Positions 6,063 to 55,183 of a stretch of 64,000 nt of DNA are shown here, piece by piece. The notes beneath the pieces were generated by a model that saw only the letters and a list, made by a program, of their open reading frames with translations, was not told where the DNA came from and searched no databases. Location of the stretch: the NCBI RefSeq assembly GCF_028898845.1, contig NZ_CP118574.1, positions 3,782,001-3,846,000 of the forward strand. The letters run 5' to 3'. Source of the DNA: Streptomyces sp. WZ-12. GTDB lineage: Bacteria > Actinomycetota > Actinomycetes > Streptomycetales > Streptomycetaceae. A program made the translations under genes and the position numbers. The first letter of the stretch is position 1. The number at the start of each line of letters is the position of its first letter.

Positions 6063-6136
6063 CTCGCTCAAGGCAGCCCGCCGTCCCCGCGGACGACAGC
6101 GTCCGCACGGGCCGCCTCCGCCGAGTCCGGCCTGTC

Positions 6137-6292
6137 ACGAAGGCAATCCGGAGCCGGGGACCCACAAGCACCACCGGGGTGAATCGACCGGAGCGACCGT
6201 CGCCAGGCGGACGCACCGGCCGTAGGGCAAGCCTTCCGTCAGCAGACCGCCCGAACCCGACAGCTAACCCGGTAGGCGGTCCACGGAAGGAG
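6137..6292 (+). ncRNA. c-di-AMP riboswitch (ydaO/yuaA type)
   Basis: The leader carries the ordered conserved blocks of this aptamer: a GAGCCGGGGACCC segment near 6151, CCGGGGTGAATCGACCGG near 6174, CCGTAGGGCAAGCC near 6220, and CCCGAACCCGACAGCTAACC with GGTAGGCGG near 6250-6280, closed by CTTCCG pairing with CGGAAG. The 3' end of the aptamer (CGGAAGGAG) is also the ribosome-binding site of the NlpC/P60 gene, so ligand binding could affect both transcription and translation. In actinobacteria this class is known to control wall hydrolases, and binding of c-di-AMP turns expression off. Boundaries are approximate. Confidence 0.88.
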
Positions 6293-6301
6293 TCGCCGGC
6301 C

Positions 6302-22761: not shown

Positions 22762-24353
<1,592 letters not shown>

Positions 24354-24385
24354 TTCGGCGGCCTTCCGGCGGTGTGGAGCAGGGG

Positions 24386-24415
24386 TTGGACTTTCGATTC
24401 TAACGGGCTCATACT
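24386..24415 (+). promoter_or_regulatory. Candidate promoter of the chorismate mutase leader
   Basis: TTGGAC and CATACT are spaced by 18 nt. The -10 box ends 7 nt before the ATG of the leader peptide, so the transcript would begin at or within a base of that ATG (a leaderless message). Confidence 0.55.
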
Positions 24416-24422
24416 GGGCGCC

Positions 24423-24494
24423 ATGTCCAGGCAGCTCACCTTCGTCTTTACCTATGGCACCGGCCCGTCCGGCTGCCAAGGTCGTGCTGCTTGA
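24423..24494 (+). CDS. Leader peptide with clustered Phe/Tyr codons
   Basis: A 23-codon ORF. Codons 7-11 read Phe-Val-Phe-Thr-Tyr, and it stops at TGA 24492. A rho-independent-type hairpin begins 20 nt after the stop and chorismate mutase follows. Chorismate mutase leads to Phe and Tyr, so clustered aromatic codons here are what a ribosome-stalling attenuator needs. It is too short for normal gene finding and its translation is inferred, not shown. No ribosome site precedes it, in keeping with a leaderless start. Confidence 0.6.
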
Positions 24495-24514
24495 TCAACT
24501 GACAGCGACTTCCC

Positions 24515-24550
24515 CAGGCGCCCCGGGCCGACCACGGTCCGGGGCGCCTG
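24515..24550 (+). terminator. Attenuator-type terminator hairpin before chorismate mutase
   Basis: CAGGCGCCCCGG and CCGGGGCGCCTG form a perfect 12-bp stem around a 12-nt loop, followed by TTGTCTG and not by a strong U tract, as is common in Streptomyces. A possible competitor exists: CGGCCCG at 24461-24467, just past the aromatic codons, is exactly complementary to CGGGCCG at 24524-24530 inside this hairpin. Confidence 0.65.
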
Positions 24551-24615
24551 TTGTCTGTCCGGGACCGGTGCCGGATCCCGCGGCTCCCGGGGCCAGGACC
24601 CCAGGAGGAACGGAC

Positions 24616-24924
24616 ATGAGCACGAGCAGCGACACCGCGCGGCCGACGGCCACCCCGGACACCGGCGCGCACACCTCGGAGGCGGCCGGTGTGATCCAGG
24701 ACGCCCGGCGCCGGATCGACGACCTCGACGGCCGGATCATCGGGCTCGTCCAGGAACGGATGGCGGTCTCCGCGGTCATCCAGCGCGAGCGGATCGCCTC
24801 CGGCGGGCGGCGGGTGAACCTCTCCCGCGAGATGGAGGTGCTGGCGCACTACCGCGACCAGCTCGGCCGGCCGGGCACGGCGCTGGCGATGACCTTGCTG
24901 GAGCTGTGCCGGGGCCGGGTCTGA
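24616..24924 (+). CDS. Chorismate mutase (AroQ class)
   Basis: A 102-residue protein with a disordered 25-residue leader and an AroQ all-helical domain. It has IDDLDGRIIGLVQERMAVS (helix 1 with the active-site Arg), IQRERIASGGRRVNLSREMEVL (second active-site Arg and Glu) and a last helix ending LELCRGRV. It converts chorismate to prephenate, the branch to Phe and Tyr, in the cytoplasm. ATG 24616 has AGGAGG 7 nt upstream. It is preceded by a leader ORF and hairpin that look like a transcription attenuator. Confidence 0.92.
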   Translation: MSTSSDTARPTATPDTGAHTSEAAGVIQDARRRIDDLDGRIIGLVQERMAVSAVIQRERIASGGRRVNLSREMEVLAHYRDQLGRPGTALAMTLLELCRGRV

Positions 24925-25258
24925 CGGCCGGGCCCAACGACGGTCCGGCGGCGGTCCGATGGGCGCCCTCCGCACCGGTCGCGCGGCCGTGCGGAGGGGA
25001 TGCGTGTGGGGGCCCGGCTGGAACTGAGTTCGGTTGCCGACTCACCCGTACGGCGCGTGACCGGGCCCGGAGAGGCTTCGTTGTTCCCGGTGCCACGCCA
25101 GCCAGACGTGGCCTGCAGGACTACGCGTAGACGCCGCCCCACGGGCGGAAAGCCGGAGTGATGAGACGTCGGCCGCTGGCAGCGGCCCGCGTCGTGGGAC
25201 CTCGCTCCGGTCCGTGACCGGTCAGCAGGGGACAGCAGCCCGGTCACACCGATGGGGT

Positions 25259-54755: not shown

Positions 54756-54944
54756 ACCCCTTTCCCGGAAATCGCCGCCCACCGGGCCCCGCCCCCGCAA
54801 AGAACCGGCCCGGAAAACAGCCCCGGATACCGTCCCGAAAGGGACCCGGAAGCACCCCGCAAGCACCCCGAGAAAAAACCTGTTGTGCCGGGACGGGGCG
54901 GTTCCTAACGTATGGGGTACACGAGAAGGGAGGTGGTTCGGCAG

Positions 54945-54983
54945 ATGATTTCGCACCGGACGCGTGAGGTGGCTGCGGGCTAG
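54945..54983 (+). CDS. Possible 12-codon ORF with a very strong ribosome site
   Basis: ATG at 54945 follows GGGAGGTGG by 8 nt and reads 12 codons (MISHRTREVAAG) to TAG. A promoter-like TTGTGC-N17-TAACGT ends at 54911, and a GGCTGC/GCAGCC hairpin overlaps the end. The in-frame ATG 54912 would extend it to 23 codons but is too close to the -10 box. No gene follows on this strand: pdxH is convergent. This could be a small peptide gene or a regulatory RNA with an internal peptide. Confidence 0.35.
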   Translation: MISHRTREVAAG

Positions 54984-55183
54984 CAGCCCGACGCTTCACC
55001 GAAGTGCAGCGCCGGATCAGCGCATACTGCAGATGCGCTCAGCCGGCCCAATCCCAAGCAGTCACCCGACCCGCGGGCTGCCGGTTCGTCCGACCGGCCC
55101 TTCGCGCCACCGAGCGCGGAGGAGACAGCCCGCGGGTCGTCTGCGTGTGCGGCCCCGACCGGCGCCGCACCACCACTCGCCCC

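Follow-up and report, generated by a model that had tools for sequence, protein, structure and literature searches.

The window analysed here, a stretch of 64,000 nucleotides from Streptomyces sp. WZ-12, contains a chorismate mutase (CM) gene which is separated from the divergently oriented guaA gene by a gap holding a short open reading frame (ORF) and two hairpins. The elements of this locus, numbered from the first letter of the window, are as follows.

22767..24347, minus strand: guaA, GMP synthase, divergent neighbour (Pfam GATase and GMP_synt_C)
24386..24415, plus strand: promoter-like boxes, -35 TTGGAC (24386-24391) and -10 CATACT (24410-24415), spacer 18 nt (sequence reading)
24423..24494, plus strand: leader ORF of 23 codons, putatively leaderless (sequence; 110/110 Streptomyces loci)
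24441..24455, plus strand: putative regulatory codons F7 V8 F9 T10 Y11, TTC GTC TTT ACC TAT
24450..24482, plus strand: P1, leader hairpin, opening at the Thr/Tyr codons (folding versus shuffles)
24461..24477, plus strand: region 2, the P1 loop and 3' arm, putative antiterminator strand, within the ORF before its stop
24515..24550, plus strand: terminator-like hairpin, 16 pairs, 4-nt loop (hairpin search)
24517..24530, plus strand: region 3, the terminator 5' arm, which can pair with region 2 or with the terminator 3' arm
24551..24560, plus strand: T-rich tail TTGTCTGTCC, weak in the window
24603..24608, plus strand: ribosome-binding site AGGAGG of CM (sequence reading)
24616..24924, plus strand: chorismate mutase, 102 aa (NF005894, structure homologues)

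The CM protein matches the NF005894 equivalog with 122 bits, and its nearest solved structures are Rv0948c (2qbv, E 2.4e-12) and Corynebacterium CM (5hub, E 1.2e-10). We take it to be of the AroQ-delta type. Of 295 genomes sampled, 290 have this CM at E ≤0.001. The first-pass annotation of this DNA had described a promoter-like TTGGAC-N18-CATACT ending 7 nt before the ATG at 24423, a 23-codon ORF (24423-24494) with the residues F7 V8 F9 T10 Y11, a perfect 12-bp hairpin from 20 nt past the leader stop (24515-24550), and a CM start about 65-66 nt beyond the hairpin (ATG 24616), all of which are borne out by the sequence. The terminator-like hairpin consists of 12 unbroken Watson-Crick pairs, then a G.U pair and three more, giving 16. 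P1 is a second hairpin which was absent from that description. The fold of 24420-24618 has a z of -4.9, with none of 200 shuffles equally stable, and the number of terminator-like sites expected by chance is 0.2 on average in shuffles of 24300-25100.

A scan of the locus with the sigma-70 consensus called no promoter, and the support for the promoter is comparative. When a loose -10-like box was allowed 4-10 nt before the start, it was found at 6-7 nt in 137 of 177 leaders and at 9 nt in one, with none in 38, in a count made without a control. A box at 6-7 nt is the geometry of a leaderless transcript, and transcription probably begins at the leader ATG or right beside it.

P1 in the window has a z of -2.2, and 3.5% of shuffles are equally stable. 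Among 24 representatives, z was negative in 23 (-1.5 to -4.9), and in 19 at most 5% of mononucleotide shuffles were as stable; P1 was borderline and not significant in L193, L223, L214 and L216, and was missing from L229. The hairpin opens at or beside the Tyr codon, and its arms vary by family (GGCACCGG, GGCUACGGA, GGCUUCCGGA, GGGUACCG). Downstream of the leader, stems of at least 11 pairs are present in 148 of 177 leaders, and the next 10 nt have a mean T content of 0.38 versus 0.14 locally. For the 67 diverged leaders, taking the best hairpin past the stop, 38 have stems with at least 11 unbroken pairs and 29 fall below 11. A predicted intrinsic terminator lies between the leader and CM, as is expected of a transcription attenuator. 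At the curated threshold Rfam has no match at the locus; with relaxed settings the best match (E 0.078) covers the terminator only.

The way in which the terminator varies bears on a possible second partner of its 5' arm. In the alignment of 44 Streptomyces sequences, one-sided changes are C to U on the 3' arm, found at three pairs in 15, 12 and 13 sequences, and seven pairs with C on the 5' arm are unchanged (these counts are of sequences, not of events). Confinement of changes to the 3' arm is what a second partner of the 5' arm would be expected to bring about. The terminators of other lineages have changed on both arms, and the 5' arm does change there, as in L156 and L183.

The second partner proposed in the first-pass annotation was the 7-mer CGGCCCG (24461-24467), exactly complementary to CGGGCCG at 24524-24530. 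This complementarity is real, but the pairing that competes with the terminator goes beyond the 7-mer, to about 24461-24477 versus 24517-24530, and P1 shares the leader strand of this pairing. We compared the stability of own 2:3 pairs with that of pairs in which the regions were swapped between loci, after removal of row and column means, by permutation. Own pairs were more stable in 30 representatives (0 of 20,000 permutations, with relatedness left in), and the result held when the test was made by lineage (p=0.00015 with 16 lineages and p=0.00075 with 11). The leader segment and the terminator 5' arm thus co-vary between lineages. For many leaders taken singly, some other region 3 pairs better than their own, which ranks 24 of 30 in L155 and 28 of 30 in L223. 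Within Streptomyces, a pattern search for position-wise covariation found little variation and a mixed outcome, the central pair being poorly supported. GGACC in region 3 occurred in five of 392 Streptomyces genomes, accompanied by the matching U in one (G694), by a C.A mismatch in three and by another change in one; L100, from outside the 392-genome sample, is a second case with the matching change. GGTCC in region 2 occurred in seven of the 392.

The first-pass annotation had named a comparison of guaA-CM gaps as the test on which its reading could fail; the comparison favours that reading. The 110 Streptomyces loci compared comprise the window, 29 genomes and 80 records; the sample is biased to close relatives because its members were picked as the best matches to the CM of the window. 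The leader was present at all 110, by pattern in 102 and on a second look in eight, and the gaps keep the ORF, its start, the in-frame F/Y cluster, the hairpin and the spacing. Codon 9 is TTT and codon 11 is TAT in every one of these leaders, and codon 7 is usually TTC (104 leaders), with TAC (Tyr) in five and TCC in one, the counter-example L102. The gap between leader stop and hairpin is 19-23 nt in 91 of the 110, and the stem has 13-17 pairs in 104. In the 44-sequence alignment most of TTTACCTATGGCA is invariant. The length of the leader tail differs in 21 of 110, often with a different frame used on the same RNA (RPVRLPWSCCLSN for RPAGCHGRAA); in the Streptomyces leader tail it is the RNA that is conserved and not the peptide. 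One record, titled Microtetraspora glauca (L114), has a Streptomyces-type leader and a CM with 79% identity, and is possibly a mislabelled genome.

The element is not confined to Streptomyces. An RNA model built from the 44 sequences matched at E ≤0.01 in 288 of 293 genomes of the order, among the matches listed, the weak ones having been checked in part. Three of the five genomes with no RNA match (G319, G343 and G468) also have no CM; the other two (L193, L190) have CM and a leader that the model missed. G492 has a weak match to the model and no CM. The leader was found in all 30 diverged low-scoring genomes picked by the RNA model, with His in place of Tyr in L165, and in eight of a separate set of nine CM loci, the ninth (L185) being truncated at the end of its contig. 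Sampling across the class gave 56 genomes of 197 with this CM at 1e-6, 40 of them outside Streptomyces. Reading these 40 by eye gave an F/Y leader in 33, none in six and a locus cut by a contig end in one (L244). The 33 leaders are short ORFs with adjacent or near-adjacent Phe/Tyr codons, and an inverted repeat rich in G+C follows immediately in nearly all of them, L229 lacking it. A mechanical search for F/Y leaders in 39 regions (L244 excluded, L215 placed by hand) found 30 in the sense direction and 0 in the antisense direction, and 50 dinucleotide shuffles gave a mean of 0.86 and a maximum of 4.

Altogether the leader occurs in eleven families: f1, f2 and f3 in the order, and f6, f14, f16, f20, f23, f33, f37 and f39 in the class. 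The homologous gaps of the ten families other than that of the window also keep the short ORF, the start, the in-frame F/Y codons, the hairpin and the spacing, with weaker hairpins in some. The leader reads MLANRRFFYGYGPGSLAIVGC in one genus of another family and MSSRARRFSYGHRIVPAGLVVVER or MRQAAFRFSYGFRNRSGSPVAVWP elsewhere. Start, frame and aromatic codons are constant, in the form F-x-Y or F-F-Y in other families, and most of the peptide has changed. In an 8-codon block of 60 unique diverged leaders there were 63 TTT, 35 TTC, 48 TAT and 26 TAC codons; the aromatic residues are kept and the synonyms vary. The six genomes with CM and no leader (L238, L239, L241, L242, L243 and L251) all belong to family f6, which looks mycobacterial, judging from an adjoining helicase gene. 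L238 and L239, of genus g39 in f6, share a GGTCTGTTTCACGGTGAA stretch upstream of CM, perhaps another control element.

The codons of the cluster are unusual for this DNA. In five genes of the window, TTT makes up 0 of 44 Phe codons and TAT 2 of 44 Tyr codons, so that the two codons found universally before P1 in the 110 Streptomyces leaders are nearly unused in these genes. Since TTT lies outside P1, pairing in P1 does not account for its conservation.

We modelled the competition between the two partners of region 3 by folding partial transcripts that end past region 3 and recording the capture of region 3 as a function of ribosome position, in 23 representatives. For the window, predicted capture was 0.89-0.90 with the ribosome on codons 4-9, 0.70 at T10 and 0.32-0.63 at Y11, and it was 0.2-0.3 while the ribosome passed codons 12-17 (pairing across the ribosome allowed). 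At the stop codon it was 0.83 with pairing across the ribosome and 0.12 without, as compared to 0.63 with no ribosome. The means over the 23 representatives were 0.83 for Phe (0.69-0.98), 0.66 for Tyr, 0.31 at four codons past Tyr, 0.55 (with pairing across the ribosome) or 0.10 at the stop, and 0.49 with no ribosome (0 to 0.93). Capture in the Phe-stalled state exceeded that with a passing ribosome in all 23, that of the open stop state in 20 and that with no ribosome in 19. The model favours stalling at Phe over stalling at Tyr (in the window, 0.89 at F9 and 0.32-0.63 at Y11).

The stop codon deserves separate mention. The stop codon of the E. coli trp leader sits between its regions 1 and 2. 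In the CM leader, unlike that one, region 2 comes before the stop, and a ribosome waiting at the stop would therefore not cover region 2. When RNA behind the ribosome was modelled as unpaired, capture at the stop was at most 0.19 in 21 of 23 representatives, a low value that is largely built in because the RNA behind the ribosome is held unpaired. Thus the model speaks for switching between a ribosome stalled at Phe and one that passes on, and its outcome at the stop hinges on this assumption. Shuffling region 2 lowered the Phe-stalled capture from 0.83 to 0.65, and none of 100 shuffled sets reached 0.83 (19 representatives); within the model, G+C composition explains much of the capture, not all of it. 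The finished terminator wins under all conditions of the model (0.72-1.0), and the switch must therefore be kinetic, chosen during transcription.

We consider it likely that the element is a ribosome-mediated transcription attenuator of CM, as the first-pass annotation had proposed. This reading is supported by the conserved gaps, by the 2:3 co-variation between lineages and by the modelled difference between a Phe-stalled and a passing ribosome. The ORF, its frame, the aromatic codons, P1, the terminator, the spacing and the co-variation can be read from sequence; from them we infer the transcription start, termination, and the response to tRNA with its direction. RNA polymerase would begin transcription at the leader ATG or beside it, followed at once by a ribosome whose position as region 3 emerges would decide the fold. 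When phenylalanine is short, the ribosome would stall on the Phe codons and cover the 5' arm of P1, leaving region 2 free to capture region 3, in which case no terminator would form and CM would be transcribed. With ample charged tRNA, the ribosome would run into P1 and cover region 2, so that region 3 and the terminator 3' arm could pair; behind the passing ribosome P1 could close again. According to the model, Tyr codon 11 would be a weaker stall site. CM is very probably turned down when phenylalanine, and perhaps tyrosine, is sufficient. It may further be speculated that this attenuator of CM comes from an early actinomycete ancestor and senses Phe together with Tyr through deliberately rare, slow, wobble-read codons, possibly helped by a nascent F-x-Y-G peptide, and is tuned to small falls in charged tRNA-Phe; we hold this elaboration to be doubtful as it stands.

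The leader might instead act on translation, either because a stalled ribosome refolds the RNA and opens the CM ribosome-binding site or because CM translation needs ribosomes that leave the leader. The binding site does lie in a predicted helix in 20 of the 25 loci in which the CM start was found (27 tried), but the helices that mask it vary by locus and are inconsistent, and pairing is to be expected of a G-rich site in sequence of this kind. The hairpin with its T-rich tail, set at constant spacing past the leader stop, is a trait of transcription attenuators, and on balance we find control of translation unlikely. We judge it quite unlikely that the ORF is incidental to a structured RNA, riboswitch-like or protein-bound, in which P1 senses a ligand directly. 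Such an RNA would suit the extreme nucleotide conservation within Streptomyces, which includes frame-shifted tails with the same RNA; however, P1 and loop sequences differ by family, the F-Y codons stay in frame with the start while third positions vary, and the locus has no counterpart in Rfam.

That the peptide varies little within Streptomyces could also mean that the leader encodes a functional small protein which stands before CM by chance. Against this, the length or frame of its C-terminus is altered in 21 of the 110 leaders from Streptomyces, only F-x-Y/F-F-Y is common to the families, and there is no Pfam match, and we think such a protein very improbable. Short ORFs are common in G+C-rich DNA, and a chance ORF might have come to stand beside an unrelated terminator. 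The conservation across families, the shuffle and antisense controls and the swap tests argue against such a coincidence, which we find hardly credible. As guaA is divergent, it needs no terminator in this gap.

An attenuator before a chorismate mutase has a classical precedent. The E. coli pheA gene encodes a bifunctional chorismate mutase-prephenate dehydratase and is preceded by the pheL leader with its runs of Phe. The likeness lies in a Phe-coding leader with a chorismate mutase downstream, as described for pheA/pheL in the available text of PMC11802643; here the CM is monofunctional, the leader has F-x-Y/F-F-Y in place of Phe runs, and its start appears to be leaderless. The nearest known relative in kind is aroR-aroF of Corynebacterium glutamicum, an actinobacterial leader with Phe-Tyr-Phe residues, which controls a DAHP synthase (aroF), whereas the element of the window precedes CM. 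The same text, citing Neshat et al. 2014, gives aroR as responding to limitation of Phe and not of Tyr (PMC11802643), with which the stronger role of Phe in our model agrees.

Leaders of the trpE/leuS type in Streptomyces, and other actinobacterial leaders, have the classical leader-terminator architecture and are often leaderless, as set out in the available parts of PMC1262725 and PMC8079986. Mycobacterial leaderless Cys-rich uORFs are also short ORFs before amino-acid genes and have been proposed to be attenuating (PMC4633059, available text), but they are of cysteine and not of aromatic residues, and those before cys operons are described without an obvious terminator in the available part of PMC1262725. 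The same part of that 2005 actinobacterial survey reports no conserved RNA structure upstream of phenylalanine or tyrosine operons, and the eight leaders reported for S. lividans in the available part of PMC8079986 include none for Phe/Tyr. Among the titles, abstract openings and passages searched, those of PMC7356990 and PMC5784534 included, no description of the CM leader element came up, and the word chorismate is absent from the main texts of PMC8269248, PMC8914203, PMC4895711, PMC13236596, PMC11133741, PMC4633059 and PMC9094748. The 96 novel premature transcription units found by Term-seq in S. clavuligerus (PMC8269248) may include the CM leader. Judged from sequence comparison, the CM leader is apparently a real and widespread attenuator of the textbook kind, of which this member, its spread and the rare-codon signature are apparently new.

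The element precedes the branch-point enzyme of the Phe/Tyr branch in eleven sampled actinobacterial families, antibiotic producers included. Relatives of this CM are controlled as complexes with DAHP synthase, and the element would join gene-level control to such an enzyme. It also points to the exact codons to mutate and offers a means of adjusting how Streptomyces production strains are supplied with aromatic precursors.

Within its own genome the element appears to stand alone. The RNA model gave one strong match there, and ten others were weak (E 0.004-0.8). The roughly 500 nt in front of each of the three class II DAHP synthase matches showed no aromatic leader, nor did those in front of two of the three prephenate dehydratase matches (the weakest, L280, was left out), and the five other CM-domain genes have no convincing leader upstream. 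A 10-codon ORF with Y-W, considered as the leader of another CM-domain gene, falls inside the L255 gene. The second CM copies of G616 (L246) and G606 (L249) have no leader. Second matches to the RNA model in G503, G303, G306, G302 and G418 are other hairpins with no F/Y leader at those sites.

Several further observations were made beside the main subject. A second aromatic gene set, at G000:C1 903846-907305, has a CM-domain gene, a prephenate dehydratase and a class II DAHP synthase (L005, L277, L279) in a span of 3.5 kb; no leader of the CM type was seen there. In the own genome, beside the best class II DAHP synthase match, a 20-aa ORF on the minus strand (L275:1315-1377), MQTRPITTMDWWWTAQPAAH, has the form of a trp-type leader. 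On the plus strand of the window, Rfam matches the actinobacterial sRNA Ms_IGR-5 at 54919-55145 (88.8 bits) and the ydaO c-di-AMP riboswitch at 6109-6293 (50.3 bits).
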